From contig RECQ01000046.1 of assembly GCA_007693965.1 (NCBI GenBank), positions 62,001 to 126,000 of the forward strand: a DNA stretch of 64,000 nucleotides. The letters are read 5' to 3'. The notes under the pieces are model-generated. The model was given only the letters and a program-made list of their open reading frames with translations, was not told the DNA's origin and did not search any database. The position numbers were made by a program, and so were the translations under genes. Below are positions 8,771 through 43,397 of this stretch, piece after piece. The stretch comes from Phycisphaeraceae bacterium. GTDB taxonomy: Bacteria; Planctomycetota; Phycisphaerae; Phycisphaerales; UBA1924. The first letter of the stretch is position 1, and the number at the start of each line of letters is the position of its first letter.

Positions 8771-9379
8771 ATGACCACCCCCAGGCACGACCCTCCAGCG
8801 CCGGAGACCGCGGCCCTGCTAGCGGCGGCGGGCGCCGGCGATGAGCAGGCATGGCGCGATCTCATCCGCCTCTACTGGCGCCGGGTCTACGCCCTTGTCC
8901 GCTCCCGCAGCGGCCGGGACGATGTCGCCGAAGAAATCACCCAGTCGGTATTCGTCACCATGGCCGAGCGAATCGGCAATGATGGCTACGACGAGCGGGG
9001 CCGCTTCGAATCGTGGCTCTTCCGAGTCGCCATGAACCGGCTTCGCGACGAGATCCGCCGACGACGACGCGCCCCAGGCGGCTCCGGCAGCCCGGAAGCG
9101 GCCCATCTCGCCTCCATCCCCGCCGCGGCGGCGGAAACACCGACGGACGAGCATGAGGCCCGCTGCATCGCCCTGCGAACCGCCCTGGCCACACTCAACG
9201 AGGCCGACCGGGAGATCATCGAGCTTCGCCACCACGCGGGGCTCTCCTTCGCCCAGATCGCCGACCTGCTTGAGGAGCCCCTGGGCACCCTGCTGGCCAG
9301 GCACCACCGGGCGCTGAAAAAAGTTCGAGATGCAATGACAGAGGCGCCGGCGCCGTTTCACGATCAGAGAGACTCCTGA
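8771..9379 (+). CDS. ECF-type RNA polymerase sigma factor
   Basis: A 202-residue sigma-70-family protein. Region 2 is visible near residues 35-100 (WRRVYALVRSRSGRDDVAEE, then QSVFVTMAERI and FESWLFRVAMNRLRDEIRRR). Region 4 is near residues 140-190 (LNEADREIIELRHHAGLSFA, then QIADLLEEPLGTLLARHHRA), with the expected helix-turn-helix. Regions 1 and 3 are absent, as in ECF factors. The ATG at 8771 was chosen; an in-frame ATG at 8726 would add 15 unconserved residues. Two bases separate it from the membrane protein gene that follows, a typical place for an anti-sigma factor. Such factors redirect polymerase in response to an envelope signal. Confidence 0.9.
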   Translation: MTTPRHDPPAPETAALLAAAGAGDEQAWRDLIRLYWRRVYALVRSRSGRDDVAEEITQSVFVTMAERIGNDGYDERGRFESWLFRVAMNRLRDEIRRRRRAPGGSGSPEAAHLASIPAAAAETPTDEHEARCIALRTALATLNEADREIIELRHHAGLSFAQIADLLEEPLGTLLARHHRALKKVRDAMTEAPAPFHDQRDS

Positions 9380-38872: not shown

Positions 38873-39253
38873 TCACGAGTCGTCTCCCGCGCGCTTCAGG
38901 CCGCAGATGCGATCGACCGGCGTCGTGAAAGCAATCGGACGCTCGTTGGGTTCGAGTTCGTCAAGCAGGTATCGAAAGGCCTCGCCGGCCTGCTTGGATG
39001 TGGTGAGGGAGAGCACAACGCGGCTTCCTGTGTGCTCCGGTATCAGCGATGCAAGCCCGGCGAAGATGGGCATGTCCTCGCGCAGGATCGCGCCCATGCC
39101 CTTGGTTTCGATGACGGTGGCGCCGGTCACCCCGATGTCCAGCAGCGCGGTGATGAGGTCGTCCAGCATCGCGGGGTTGGAGGCGATCATCACCAGCAGC
39201 ACGCGATCGGATCCGTCGCGAACGCCGGAGGCGGAGGCGACGCTCTCAGCCAT
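38873..39253 (-). CDS. PII-like small signalling protein
   Basis: A 126-residue protein with an alternating beta-alpha-beta pattern like PII/CutA ferredoxin-fold trimers: RVLLVMIASNPAMLDDLITA near residue 17, LLDIGVTGATVIETKGMGAI near residue 37, RVVLSLTTSKQAGEAFRYLL near residue 78. The ETKGMG segment sits where the PII T-loop begins. It overlaps the EIIA-type gene by eight bases and lies at the head of the antiporter block. Carbon- or ion-sensing PII paralogues often regulate the transporter encoded beside them, but that role is inferred. No uridylylation tyrosine motif is seen. Confidence 0.65.
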   Translation of the reverse strand: MAESVASASGVRDGSDRVLLVMIASNPAMLDDLITALLDIGVTGATVIETKGMGAILREDMPIFAGLASLIPEHTGSRVVLSLTTSKQAGEAFRYLLDELEPNERPIAFTTPVDRICGLKRAGDDS

Positions 39254-39722
39254 GAGAACGATCCTCCTTCACCAGCGTTTCGTGTAGCTGCCGCTCATCC
39301 TCGACGGCGCGGAGCCGTTCCAGCGCCCCGGGCCCCCGCGCGATCCGCGCCAGCCGCGCCAGCAGCCGCACGTGCTCCCAGGGTCGACCCGAGTCGCCGA
39401 ACATGGCGAAGACCAGATCTATCTCCGGGCTCTGCACCGAGCTGCCCTCGTTGCGAAAGGAGACGGGCGGGGAGACCCGCGCCGCCACCACCACGGTGGA
39501 CTTGATGCCCGGCAGCATGGCATGGGGAAAGGCGACGCCTTCGGGGGTTACGGTCGCCATCTGGGCCTCACGGGTCCGCAGCGCTTCGGCGAGGGTCGCG
39601 GCGTCGAAGCCCTCCATGGCCTCCGCCGCAACCTCGGCGAGACGGGTCAGCAATGCGTCCCGGTCCGAGGTGTCGCGGAGAAAGAGGACCTGCTCTGGTT
39701 TGAGATATGGCTCAAGGCGCAT
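39246..39722 (-). CDS. PTS EIIA (fructose/Ntr-type) domain protein
   Basis: A 158-residue PTS_EIIA type 2 domain: LTRLAEVAAEAMEGFDAATL then EALRTREAQMATVTPEGVAF, and the phospho-acceptor His in VAFPHAMLPGI near residue 67. A VFAMFGDSGRPWEHVRLLAR strand-helix follows. No EIIB/EIIC genes occur here. Stand-alone EIIA proteins regulate K+ or Na+ transport and nitrogen metabolism rather than importing sugar, which fits its place at the head of the antiporter operon. The ATG at 39722 was chosen; the longer frame adds a non-conserved N-terminus. Confidence 0.82.
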   Translation of the reverse strand: MRLEPYLKPEQVLFLRDTSDRDALLTRLAEVAAEAMEGFDAATLAEALRTREAQMATVTPEGVAFPHAMLPGIKSTVVVAARVSPPVSFRNEGSSVQSPEIDLVFAMFGDSGRPWEHVRLLARLARIARGPGALERLRAVEDERQLHETLVKEDRSHG

Positions 39723-39830
39723 GGTGAATCCGATAGATGATCTCGACGATACCAGACCCGGACCGTCAGCGGCGTCCATCGGGCGTGAGTTGAGCGGCGA
39801 GCCGGTCTGGGCTTAGAATAAGGAATGTTC

Positions 39831-40610
39831 ATGCAGCTTCGGCGACCCATCCTGAACTTTCTCAAACGTGTTTCACTGGCTGTATGCGCCCTCGGGTTCG
39901 TGCTTCCACTCGTCGGGTGCGATCCCGGCGAGCCGCCGGATGAGCGCCTCACCCTTCGGATCTTCGTCACCAGGGATCTCGAAAATGTGGTCCACGATCT
40001 GAGGCCCCTCTACCTGCAGGACCATCCCGATGTTCGTATCGAATTCTCCGGCGGGGAAACCCAGTCGCTGGCGCTCCAGGCCGCCGCGGGCGATAAGCCG
40101 GACCTGCTCATCACCAACGATGGGGAAGTGTTCAACAACATGATCCCGCCGGCAAGCAGCGTCGATCCATGCCTGGCGGATGACATGGTCGTCATCTCCT
40201 CCGATGCGGACGCGGACATGGCCGAATTCACCACCGGCGCCGATCCCGTCGCGATCGTCATGGAAAGCGCGCCCGCCGGCGCGGAGACCAGGCTTGCCCT
40301 GCAAGTGATCGACGCCTGGACCAGCGTGGAGTTGCGGGCCCAGCGCTCGCAGACCGTCGCGGATGTGATCTCGCGCGTGCAGGCCGGTGATATCCGCTTC
40401 GGCGTTGTCTACACCTCTTCGGTGGCCGCCGCTGACGATGACGTGCATGTCGTGGGCGTGCTGCGGATGCCCAACGGAGCGGCGCTGACCTACTACGCCG
40501 GCGCCTTCTCGGACGAGGGACGGGCTTTCTCCAACTGGATGCGGTCCAGCCCTGAAGCTGCGCGAATCGCAGAACAGGCCGGCTTCCGGGTCGTCGAGCC
40601 CTCCCGCTGA
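39831..40610 (+). CDS. ModA-like extracellular substrate-binding lipoprotein
   Basis: A 259-residue protein with a signal peptide ending in LPLVGC (lipobox Cys near residue 26). The layout of the mature part is that of type 2 periplasmic binding proteins for molybdate/tungstate or anions: TLRIFVTRDLENVVHDLRPL, then FSGGETQSLALQAAAGDKPD and LLITNDGEVFNNM, and finally GAALTYYAGAFSDEGRAFSN. No modB/modC follows, so the ligand is unproven. AAGGA lies six bases before the ATG at 39831, supporting it over the ATG at 39825. Confidence 0.75.
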   Translation: MQLRRPILNFLKRVSLAVCALGFVLPLVGCDPGEPPDERLTLRIFVTRDLENVVHDLRPLYLQDHPDVRIEFSGGETQSLALQAAAGDKPDLLITNDGEVFNNMIPPASSVDPCLADDMVVISSDADADMAEFTTGADPVAIVMESAPAGAETRLALQVIDAWTSVELRAQRSQTVADVISRVQAGDIRFGVVYTSSVAAADDDVHVVGVLRMPNGAALTYYAGAFSDEGRAFSNWMRSSPEAARIAEQAGFRVVEPSR

Positions 40611-40839
40611 GAGCTGCTGGAGGACGCCCTCCGTCCGCAGAGAGGGCCTGCTCCTGCTGGTCGGAATCTCCCTCCTGTGCCGCGTCCGGGCACTGGCGGC
40701 CTCAGGGCCCCTCGGTGAGTTGGCCAGCGCTGCGCCGCCCCCAATTTCCAGAAAATTCAACGCTTTCGCCGGTACAATGCCGCAAGACAGCATCGCAGAT
40801 TCCCAAAGAATCGACGCACCCCCTGTGGAGGTTTTGGCC

Positions 40840-41076
40840 ATGGATCTCGCGCTTGCGACCGGCATTTTCGAATCGCGGAATTTCCTGTTCCTTATCGGAG
40901 GCGTCATCGCGCTGGTGTGGATCGTGGCGGCGTCGCTGGAGACCATCATCTCGACGCGGTCGCGGGAGCGCACCAAGCGAGAGGTGGCGGCGTACGTCGC
41001 AGAGGGCTCCATCAAGCCGGAGGACGCCGTGCGCATCCTCAACACGGAGCACAAGAAGATCAGCGATTACCTCTGA
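40840..41076 (+). CDS. Small single-helix membrane protein, AAYxAEGSI family, member 1
   Basis: A 78-residue protein: a short N-terminus, one transmembrane helix (FLFLIGGVIALVWIVAASLE), a basic juxtamembrane stretch and the C-terminal motif KREVAAYVAEGSIKPEDAVR. GGAGG eight bases before the ATG at 40840 supports this start. The motif is shared with the next two genes. No family name was recognised; the C-terminal part resembles SHOCT-like domains (short amphipathic helix, G-x-I turn, acidic helix), which would imply oligomerisation or partner binding. It is the first of three closely spaced genes, 21 bases before the second. Confidence 0.82.
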   Translation: MDLALATGIFESRNFLFLIGGVIALVWIVAASLETIISTRSRERTKREVAAYVAEGSIKPEDAVRILNTEHKKISDYL

Positions 41077-41097
41077 GCGCAGGCCCCCGGCGCCTGA

Positions 41098-41331
41098 ATG
41101 CGAGCAGTCATGGAAGCCATCGAAACCATCATGAACTCCAGATCGTTCTTCTTCCTCGTCATCGGGGCGATCGCGATCGTGGCGATCCTCGGCGGCATCC
41201 TGGAGAGCATTCTGCGCACGCGGGCCCAGGAGCGGAGCCGTCGCGAGATCGCCGCCTACATCGCAGAGGGCTCCATCACGCCGGAGCAGGGCGAGCGGTT
41301 GATGAAGTCCACGCCGAAGAAGTCCTGCTGA
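41098..41331 (+). CDS. Small single-helix membrane protein, AAYxAEGSI family, member 2
   Basis: A 77-residue protein with the same plan as its neighbours: a transmembrane helix near residues 18-38 (FFFLVIGAIAIVAILGGILE) and the motif RREIAAYIAEGSITPEQGER near residues 48-67, ending in a lysine-rich tail. The start at 41098 could instead be the ATG at 41110. Neither has a strong Shine-Dalgarno, and coupling to the preceding gene is likely. Function unknown. Confidence 0.82.
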   Translation: MRAVMEAIETIMNSRSFFFLVIGAIAIVAILGGILESILRTRAQERSRREIAAYIAEGSITPEQGERLMKSTPKKSC

Positions 41332-41344
41332 TGGAGGTCGGACT

Positions 41345-41635
41345 ATGGACAAACTGATCGAAGCGATCGCGGAAGACCCCTCGATGTTCGTCAACGTGCT
41401 GTTTGCCCTCTCGTCGATCGTCATCATCGGCGCGACCATCGTTCTGTGCATGCGCATCGGACTGAAGATGAAGCGCGAGCAGGAGATCTCGCGACGCGAG
41501 ATCGCCGCGTACGTCGCGGAGGGCTCGATCAGCGCCGAGGACGCCGAGTCGCTGCTCCAGCCGCGCCCGTGGTTCTCGCGGGGAAAGACCGCGGAGAAGA
41601 TCAAGGAGGCGTGCCGGGGGCTCGGCGGCCTCTGA
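41345..41635 (+). CDS. Small single-helix membrane protein, AAYxAEGSI family, member 3
   Basis: A 96-residue protein, the longest of the three, with a helix near residues 15-35 (MFVNVLFALSSIVIIGATIV) and the motif SRREIAAYVAEGSISAEDAE near residues 49-68. A basic/amphipathic C-terminal extension of about 25 residues (KTAEKIKEACRGLGGL) is absent from the others. GGAGG lies nine bases before the ATG at 41345. The gene ends 38 bases before the convergent gene at 41674. Function unknown. Confidence 0.83.
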   Translation: MDKLIEAIAEDPSMFVNVLFALSSIVIIGATIVLCMRIGLKMKREQEISRREIAAYVAEGSISAEDAESLLQPRPWFSRGKTAEKIKEACRGLGGL

Positions 41636-41673
41636 CCGCCGCGGCGGCGCACGCCGAACGCGGGGCGCTCCAC

Positions 41674-42069
41674 TCACATTAAAACGTCGATCATGTTGCC
41701 CAGCGTCGAGCGCGATCGCACCTGGTAGGTCTGCTCGACCCGGATCCGCTTCGTGATCTCGCGCGTGGGTGAGACATCCGCCAGCCGCGGACCCGGGCGG
41801 TCGCTCCGGTCGCTGCGGTGCGGCTCATGCGTCTCGTGGCGAAGCGGAGATTCGGTCCCGGACCGATCGGCGCCGGCCGGGGACTTCTCTGCGGCTCGCG
41901 CGTGCTCTTTCCTCAGGAATTCGGCGAAGAGGAGCCTGCCGTCCCATCGCGCCGGGGCCGGACGATCCACGCCCGCATCCTGGCCCCTGCACGGCGGCTC
42001 GATGCGCCGGGGGCGATCGCCGCAACGGGCGCCCGGGTTCGGTTCTGGCGTGTATGACTCGATCTGCAC
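41674..42069 (-). CDS. Hypothetical protein with conserved-looking C-terminus
   Basis: The frame opens farther upstream (to 42222) but becomes convincingly coding from about 42069, where a GTG would start VQIESYTPEPNPGARCGDRP. From there to the TGA at 41674 nearly all third codon positions are G or C. The C-terminus EITKRIRVEQTYQVRSRSTL then GNMIDVLM looks helical and constrained; the middle is polar and Arg/Pro-rich. No domain was recognised and no Shine-Dalgarno precedes the GTG, so the start is a guess. It lies divergently next to queA and convergent to the small membrane protein trio. Confidence 0.5.
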   Translation of the reverse strand: MQIESYTPEPNPGARCGDRPRRIEPPCRGQDAGVDRPAPARWDGRLLFAEFLRKEHARAAEKSPAGADRSGTESPLRHETHEPHRSDRSDRPGPRLADVSPTREITKRIRVEQTYQVRSRSTLGNMIDVLM

Positions 42070-42227
42070 GCCTGATATGGAGTAAAACCGGCGCCGCCCC
42101 GGCGAGGGCCCGCGGGTCCGGAAAGATCCGCAGCCATCGCACCCGTTCCCGCACGCTCCCCACGACGCCGCAGACCGACCGAAAACACGTCGCGGAATGA
42201 CCACACGCCGTGTTGCATCCACGCATC

Positions 42228-43397
42228 ATGCTGCCCACCAGCGCCCTCGAATTCGACCTGCCGCAGCGGCTCATCGCCACGCGCCCCGCCGAGCCGCGGG
42301 ACTCGGCCCGGCTGTTCGTGATCTCGCGCTCCGACCCCGAGCGGCGCGAGCACGCGCTGGTGCGCGATCTGCCCGAGATACTCGGACGCGCTTCCGACCA
42401 ATTCACGATGGTGTGCAACGTCAGCGGCGTGCTGCGGGCAAGGCTGCGGGGCGTCCGCTCTGACACCGGCGGCGGCGTGACGGGCCTCTTTCTCGAAGAG
42501 CTCCGCACCGAGCGCGACGGGCGCCTGTGGCGCGTGATGCTCAAGTCCGGCGGCCGCCTGGCGCCTGGTCGCACGATCGAGCTGCATCCGCATGTTTCGC
42601 CGGGGACGTCGAAGCACGAGTCAAAGCACGAGGGGAGCGCGTTGACGCTGGAGCTGCTGTCACGCGAGACGGACGCATGGCTGACCAAGGTGCGCACACC
42701 GCAGTCCGACGCGGCGGTCGACGACGATCTCTCATCGCTGCTGGAGCGCATCGGCGCCACCCCCCTGCCCCCCTACATCCTCAGCGCGCGGCGCCAGGCC
42801 GGTGAGTCTCCTGCGGATGCGCAGGATCGCGCCTGGTACCAGACCGTCTACGCCGACAGCGCCCACGCCGCCTCGGTCGCAGCGCCGACCGCCGGACTGC
42901 ACTTCACGCACGAGCTGCTCGACCGCCTCGCCATGCAGGGCGTGCGCCGGCGCGATGTGGCGCTGCACGTCGGGCGAGGCACATTTAAGCCGGTGGAATC
43001 GGCCCACATCGAGGAGCATCCCATGCACGCCGAGCGGTACGACATTCCGCCCGAGACGATGGGCGCCCTCTCCGAACGCGCTGCGGGCTCGACACGCATC
43101 CTGTGCGTCGGCACCACCAGCGCCCGCGCCCTCGAGAGCGTTCCCACGCGGATTCCCGACGAACCACTCGAGCGCGGCCTCACGGGCGAAGCGAGAATTC
43201 TCATTACACCCGGCCACCAGTGGCGCCATGTCGACGCCCTGCTGACCAACTTCCACCTGCCGCGCTCGACCCTGCTGGCGATGGTCGGCGCCCTGCTTCC
43301 CGAGGGTGTGGAGCGCCTGCTGGAACACTACCGCGAGGCGATCTCGATGGAATATCGCTTCTTCAGCTACGGTGATGCGATGCTGGTGTTGCCGTGA
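42228..43397 (+). CDS. queA: S-adenosylmethionine:tRNA ribosyltransferase-isomerase (QueA), divergent
   Basis: A 389-residue QueA homologue (epoxyqueuosine synthesis on tRNA). Family blocks are clear: FDLPQRLIATRPAEPRDSAR near residue 9, AAPTAGLHFTHELLDRLAMQ near residue 222, LHVGRGTFKPVESAHIEEHP near residue 245, VGTTSARALESV near residue 290 and TNFHLPRSTLLAMVGALLPE near residue 340. However, the normally invariant NDTRV segment after the LVxN strand reads NVSGV near residue 64. The ATG at 42228 was chosen; a TTG at 42210 is possible. It may be a functionally altered QueA, or the change may be compensated. Confidence 0.88.
   Translation: MLPTSALEFDLPQRLIATRPAEPRDSARLFVISRSDPERREHALVRDLPEILGRASDQFTMVCNVSGVLRARLRGVRSDTGGGVTGLFLEELRTERDGRLWRVMLKSGGRLAPGRTIELHPHVSPGTSKHESKHEGSALTLELLSRETDAWLTKVRTPQSDAAVDDDLSSLLERIGATPLPPYILSARRQAGESPADAQDRAWYQTVYADSAHAASVAAPTAGLHFTHELLDRLAMQGVRRRDVALHVGRGTFKPVESAHIEEHPMHAERYDIPPETMGALSERAAGSTRILCVGTTSARALESVPTRIPDEPLERGLTGEARILITPGHQWRHVDALLTNFHLPRSTLLAMVGALLPEGVERLLEHYREAISMEYRFFSYGDAMLVLP

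Follow-up and report, generated by a model that had tools for sequence, protein, structure and literature searches.

Three short genes that follow one another on a planctomycete contig, each encoding a single-helix membrane protein, raise the question of what such proteins do together and what controls them. In the window, here the entire 64-kb stretch of DNA that was analyzed, the earlier note had described three consecutive ORFs of 78, 77 and 96 codons separated by gaps of 21 and 13 bases, and our coordinates agree with this description: all three lie on the plus strand, at 40840..41076 (w1), 41098..41331 (w2) and 41345..41635 (w3). These are real genes. Each is coding by the coding-potential score, and the median pN/pS across 31 pairs of related members of the family is 0.31, with 23 of the 25 pairs listed at 0.03-0.46 and two high (0.87 and 1.47). 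The w2 gene could start at either 41098 or 41110, the latter being preferred by the coding score and yielding a protein of 73 amino acids. A GGAGG sequence at 40827..40831 (+) is the likely ribosome binding site of w1. An Rfam search of positions 39500-42400 of the window found no family, and generic scans picked up three terminator-like sites, each of them on the minus strand, and nothing of the sigma-70 promoter type.

All three proteins consist of one transmembrane (TM) helix, a basic stretch and, after it, the motif [KR]RE[IV]AAY[IV]AEGSI, as had been read in them previously; the motif sequences are KREVAAYVAEGSIKPEDA, RREIAAYIAEGSITPEQG and RREIAAYVAEGSISAEDA. The C-terminal hairpin carries a type B motif (V..DA) in w1 and w3, the latter with an additional basic tail, and a type A motif (I..QG) in w2. 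Under the positive-inside rule, the basic side of a TM helix is cytoplasmic, and because the basic side follows the helix in these proteins, an N-out/C-in topology is suggested, in which a short outer end would be followed by the TM helix, its probable extension as a cytoplasmic helix and the hairpin. In the AlphaFold2 model of w2 (pLDDT 92.3), helices span residues 2-13, 15-57 and 62-70, so that the predicted C-terminal region fits two short helices about a Gly turn, namely a helix up to residue 57, the turn and the helix 62-70. The model of w3, made without an alignment, is weak (pLDDT 73). Neither a comparison of the w2 model with the PDB at E<=0.001 nor a PDB sequence search with the cassette family produced a match.

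The earlier note had likened the shared C-terminus to a SHOCT-like domain, a proposal that profile-profile comparison bears out, pointing to the DUF2089-C type, with the Pfam cut-off not reached. When the family profile was aligned by hhalign with 17 PF22746 domains (17 of the 18 over the cut-off, one with a stop codon being left out), the probability was 96.6% (E 6e-10) over 27 columns covering the motif; as a control, 10 of these domains in a reversed alignment gave 0.5%. No curated family of Pfam or NCBIfam scored over its cut-off with w1, w2 or w3; the only one of the three proteins to match PF22746 (SHOCT-like_DUF2089-C) at E<=0.1 was w3, weakly (E 0.019, 15 bits compared to a gathering cut-off of 27). 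Matches at the same level occur in 38 of 71 members of the family, the best with an E-value of 9.9e-5. In the source genome, the best place for PF22746 reached 19.8 bits, below the 27-bit cut-off, and for SHOCT itself (PF09851), no place scored over the Pfam cut-off. The cassette proteins share with SHOCT-like domains a helical hairpin of about 27 residues, its pattern of hydrophobic positions and an acidic residue followed by an invariant Gly. In contrast to PF22746, the cassette hairpin stands alone on a single TM helix, occurs in position-typed tandem sets and shows a stronger RRExAAYxAEG signature. Some members deviate from this plan: in five loci (L043, L056, L076, L074 and L053) open frames contain two profile matches, and in three of these (L043, L056 and L076) a second copy of the hairpin is located at the C-terminus. 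A cysteine is present in the tail after the hairpin in 96 of the 216 members, often at the very C-terminus.

Profile searches at successive taxonomic levels show the protein family to be lineage-specific, with near-core status in a single family of its order. A search with w2 identified relatives in 41 of 61 genomes, including the source genome. With the profile (71 rows), members were found in 138 of the 163 genomes of the taxonomic family of the source, in 100 of its 112 good-quality genomes and in 66 of its 74 genera. At the class level, 18 of 198 genomes matched: 11 belong to the same family, 4 with strong matches represent two other families of the order, and the remaining 3 match weakly (E 2e-4 to 5e-4), and the w2 search adds one more family of the order (G038); at the phylum level, 8 of 246 genomes matched, five from the same family and three weakly (E 3e-4 to 6e-4), and two of the latter, in G041 and G489, coincide with PF22746 matches. 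Because the profile was built mostly from one taxonomic family, distant members may escape detection. Of 173 stretches confirmed in named genomes, 80 were retained, and of these, 77 come from Phycisphaera-type organisms or Planctomycetota and 3 from entries labeled "bacterium". The window contig belongs to a 3.48-Mb genome, in which one further clear member is encoded on another contig (C57); of two additional weak matches (E 0.015 and 0.11), the one at E 0.015 is no convincing member. Type I toxins, holins or phage-derived small membrane proteins would resemble these proteins in size and in the possession of a single TM helix only, and the presence in 100 of the 112 good-quality genomes, the strongly conserved cytoplasmic motif and the synteny with apparent housekeeping genes make such an origin very improbable.

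Recurrence of tandem sets in related genomes, a check proposed in the earlier note, was indeed observed. Over 102 non-redundant loci (26 redundant ones were left out), we counted 103 cassettes with 216 members, namely 33 single, 34 double, 29 triple and 7 quadruple, so that 70 of the 103 contain two or more genes; two members were missed by the regular expression, contig ends may shorten some sets, and given that the loci were picked for holding a member, these sizes do not represent a genome-wide average. The motif occurs in two types, A (AAYIAEGSMTPEQGERLM) and B (mostly AAYVAEGS.xPEDAERLL). The first gene is of type A (QG form) in 60 of the 70 multi-gene cassettes, a number reached in none of 10,000 within-cassette shuffles. 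In a quick LG+G4 tree of 59-residue segments, from which the diagnostic columns had been removed, the label "first" or "later" changes 11 times, compared to at least 49 times in 200 within-cassette shuffles, and the best-separating clade (support 75), which was chosen after the fact, includes 81 of the 113 later genes and none of the 70 first genes. Together, the shuffle test and the label changes on the tree argue that the A/B split is old and that the gene order is mostly kept, and the idea of a duplicated family of small membrane proteins is supported, with the first and later genes as old, distinct paralogs. The window, with the order B, A, B, is an exception, and w1, w2 and w3 all fall outside the best-separating clade. 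The two paralog lines, A (usually first) and B (usually later), are kept together and are probably partners or graded anchors.

The distribution of conservation along these proteins bears on how they might act. E-7, R-3, E-2, A0, A1, Y2, A4, E5 and G6 are conserved at >=95% in both types, and the helix and the motif stay in register, the layout counted from the motif being gap-free across members. One could imagine a homo- or hetero-oligomeric scaffold or a small pore, built from A and B, that alters the membrane directly, without docking anything, as the joint retention of A and B and the recurrence of small residues at spaced TM positions would allow. These small residues are only moderately conserved, however, and the cytoplasmic hairpin is conserved far more strongly than the helix, which points to contacts on the cytoplasmic side. 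In addition, according to PMC3581485, size exclusion applied to one SHOCT domain gave no support for self-oligomerization, which favors partner binding over a scaffold of helices only, and we regard such a scaffold or pore as quite unlikely.

If the hairpins bind a partner, the partner gene might be located next to the cassette, and the earlier note had suggested looking for a conserved neighbor. The recurring neighbors look instead like housekeeping synteny blocks, and no dedicated partner was recognized. Among the 102 loci, a guaB-like gene lies downstream in 31 and an aat-like gene upstream in 27 (26 of them divergent), a convergent glucosidase-like gene is present in 22 and a queA-like gene downstream in 20; these names were read from one example sequence per cluster and form two synteny blocks. 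At many loci, the cassette constitutes a unit of its own, flanked by a divergent gene upstream and a convergent one downstream. Neither psp genes nor sigma-factor or regulator genes were recognized among the recurring neighbors, judging one example sequence per cluster. A cluster of same-strand upstream frames from 21 loci (cluster 3), considered as a partner, was set aside because it looks like antisense shadow ORFs. Upstream of the cassette in the window are a gene for a PTS EIIA-2 domain protein (39249-39722, minus strand), which is a synteny neighbor at other cassette loci as well, and a gene for an extracellular solute-binding protein (39825-40607, plus strand).

A recurring feature was found in the DNA upstream of the first cassette genes. 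Enriched upstream words revealed the bipartite motif TGAAA-N14-TTCCCAAnnA; TGAAA and TCCCA are found at a distance of 20 in 34 cases and in at most 3 at any other distance listed. A matrix detected the element in 97 of the 103 cassettes and in 3 of the 103 reverse strands when fitted on the same data, and in 95 and 2, respectively, under five-fold held-out scoring at a threshold of 10. At a score above 14, the element precedes 92 of the 103 first members, 1 of the 113 later members and 5 of the 760 other genes. In the window, it occupies 40781..40809 (+), about 30 nt before the start of w1 and outside the segment 40840-41635 considered in the earlier note. Its downstream half, TTCCCAA at 40800-40806 with the A at 40809, is perfect, the upstream half, CGCAA at 40781-40785, is degenerate relative to TGAAA, and the whole differs from the plain pattern by 2 mismatches. 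With a score of 15.7, it is the best matrix match on both strands of the 64 kb (the matrix includes this site), and the held-out score is 16.1. The plain pattern alone is not significant in the window, where six places match with up to 3 mismatches compared to 3.3 expected. Around the element, covariation analysis found no paired-column signal above 20 shuffles. As an aside, three of the five other genes with scores above 14, located near cassettes, are, by reading, BI-1/YccA-like (L148:10092-10865, L052:11799-12617 and L164:6026-6832) and could be further regulon members.

Two half-sites at a fixed spacing, shortly before a gene, form the arrangement typical of promoters of extracytoplasmic function (ECF) sigma factors, and because the halves are non-palindromic and the element has one orientation and a short distance to the start codon, we consider it promoter-like and a putative ECF sigma factor promoter. 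Alternatively, the regulon might be real and its control different, the element being the operator of an activator or a two-component regulator. An operator could account for the unusual downstream half, and in some upstream regions TAGAAT- or TACAAT-like words that could be a housekeeping -10 stand before the element; moreover, the cognate sigma factor is only putative. The same promoter-like geometry speaks against an operator, which we consider unlikely.

The genes behind other copies of the element indicate what kind of regulon this would be. The exact pattern is present in 70 of the 163 genomes of the family (fewer than half) and its reversed control in none. From the 96 exact sites, we read 75, of which 65 have a predicted start within 330 nt; of the 21 excluded, 19 precede known cassette members by up to about 650 nt, and the other two are G350, which is the site in L162, and G253:C34, judged by a near-identical spacer only. 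The first genes behind the 65 sites encode TM-coiled-coil proteins (21), DUF4870 proteins (8), a small protein followed by flotillin (7), cassette members (4), Pmp3 (3), toastrack DUF4097 proteins (2), MoxR (2, with a third at 401 nt), LemA (1, with another as the second gene), SPFH, TM2 and DUF3352 proteins (1 each), two groups of uncharacterized membrane proteins (4 and 3) and seven others, including an MFS transporter, an epimerase and a glyoxalase-type gene. In the background, which consists of cassette neighbors rather than a random genome sample, none of the 916 genes is of the TM-coiled-coil class; of the classes compared, only M48-like (one gene) and MoxR-like (two genes) are represented. 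The sharing of the motif with envelope-type genes is, as far as sequence can tell, strong evidence of co-regulation. In the source genome, 18 sites occur with up to 2 mismatches compared to 7 for the reversed control, so that many of them are chance matches; of the 17 that do not belong to the cassette, three lie 102, 86 and 71 nt upstream of genes for, respectively, a TM-coiled-coil (E 9e-109), a toastrack and a DUF4870 protein, and the other 14, of which one falls within a gene, surely include chance matches. The 194-aa gene that precedes flotillin is located where nfeD often is, but in the absence of a Pfam match for it, an identity with NfeD is only our guess. A sequence search of the PDB at E<=0.01 found no relative of the TM-coiled-coil protein, which was rejected as a PspA, the one in the source genome reaching only a sub-threshold match to PspA_IM30 (E 0.005). 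In 5 of the 75 loci (L253, L254, L263, L309 and L256), mreB is the second or third gene after the element, and this order of TM-coiled-coil gene and mreB may tie the regulon to cell shape.

The sigma-W consensus has a TGAAA upstream half, and its -10 is unlike TTCCCAA. The gene content behind the planctomycete element, with flotillin at 7 of the 75 sites, toastrack at 2 and one further SPFH protein, resembles the envelope-stress regulon of sigma-W: the Bacillus subtilis sigma-W list in PMC3498285 includes yuaF-floT-yuaI, yqeZ-yqfA-yqfB, pspA-ydjGHI and yvlABCD, and in both systems an ECF-like bipartite element with a TGAAA half stands before flotillin operons and toastrack genes (YvlB of B. 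subtilis carries DUF4097, according to PMC9239133). The planctomycete system differs from sigma-W in the TTCCCAA downstream half, in the addition of DUF4870, Pmp3, LemA, MoxR and TM-coiled-coil genes, and in PspA, which is over the cut-off in only 2 of 61 genomes of the family, compared to 9 of 14 control genomes; it was not found in the source genome, and PspA_IM30 is absent from the first-gene families at E<=1e-4 behind the element.

These observations allow a reading that we hold only tentatively, as less probable than not by a clear distance, namely, that one planctomycete family has a PspA-free envelope-stress response, in which a putative ECF factor recognizing TGAAA-N14-TTCCCAA would control flotillin, toastrack, LemA, Pmp3 and coiled-coil/MreB genes together with the A/B cassette, the A/B helices replacing PspB/PspC-like receptors. 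PspB is a small membrane protein with a cytoplasmic helical end that acts in an envelope-stress setting, and the cassette proteins resemble PspB and PspC in being small and membrane-bound with such an end, in a putative setting of the same kind; unlike PspB and PspC, they have their own motif, and no pspA or pspC neighbor was recognized. PspB did not match the three window proteins in Pfam or NCBIfam and, for the 71 members, is not among the 25 listed of the 51 matched families. One genome of the family, G020, combines a strong PspA (E 2e-38) with the lack of a cassette, in favor of this reading; against it, G035 carries a cassette as well as PspA over the cut-off, and both are lacking in G011, G025, G036 and G265. 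It is because of these four of the 61 genomes that we keep the reading tentative, and with so few genomes, a claim of PspA replacement is not warranted.

The reading we prefer, with a probability of roughly 55%, is that the cassette encodes membrane anchors under envelope-stress control, the hairpins of which dock sub-membrane proteins. The cassette would form a separate transcription unit, headed by a promoter-like element of the ECF sigma type, and would share its regulation with membrane and envelope genes of this lineage of planctomycetes; under envelope stress, it would be made alongside flotillin/SPFH, toastrack, LemA-type and coiled-coil proteins, which the hairpins may dock or organize at the inner face of the membrane. 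This proposal draws on analogy with the sigma-W gene lists, with SHOCT fusions and with the recruitment of PspA to the membrane in B. subtilis. The most frequent fusion partner of SHOCT is Band 7, and fusions to PF09685 and TM2 occur as well (PMC3581485); the families of these same partners follow the motif here. For PspA of B. subtilis, localization to the membrane depends on an SPFH protein together with two membrane proteins (PMC8581546), and in the same species, a toastrack protein with SHOCT-like domains has a predicted role at the membrane (PMC11237479). Alternatively, the cassette proteins could themselves be regulators, that is, PspB-like or anti-sigma-like sensors that hold a sigma factor or some other transcription factor at the membrane and feed back on their own regulon. 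A single TM helix with a protein-binding type of hairpin in the cytoplasm would suit this role, and control by the shared motif would fit feedback. The example sequences of recurring neighbors, however, contained no sigma-factor or regulator gene, and several paralogs per unit would be unusual for an anti-sigma factor; we therefore find the regulator role rather unlikely.

The suggestion of an undescribed system thus stands in part: no curated family scored over its cut-off for the window proteins, but the hairpin is of a described domain type, and the cassette proteins accordingly do have known relatives. In the open literature on envelope stress, SHOCT and ECF regulons in Phycisphaerae and other planctomycetes, within the portions of these sources that were accessible, we found no description of the family or the motif. 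What appears to be new is the way in which parts of known kinds are combined, together with the typed tandem paralogs and the DNA signature. Three small, so far unnamed proteins are assigned to a predicted regulon; a defined DNA signature marks this regulon, and its cassette is close to universal in a planctomycete family known largely from metagenome assemblies. The analysis also offers a testable role for SHOCT-like domains, given that SHOCT fusion families share a control motif with free SHOCT-like helices, and opens a route to asking how a lineage mostly without PspA guards its membrane.

With regard to the sigma factor that would recognize the element, the source genome encodes at least 9 sigma-factor relatives, none linked to the motif, and because no first gene behind the sites was recognized as a sigma factor, autoregulation was not seen. 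A candidate for the cognate factor comes from another genome, G304, in which an exact motif is followed by an SPFH gene and then by an ECF sigma factor gene with Sigma70_r2 and r4 domains (L279:475-2989, plus strand). The window itself contains, at 8813-9337 on the plus strand (contig positions 70813-71337), one of these relatives, an ECF-type gene whose product matches the L279 sigma factor with an E-value of 3e-8.
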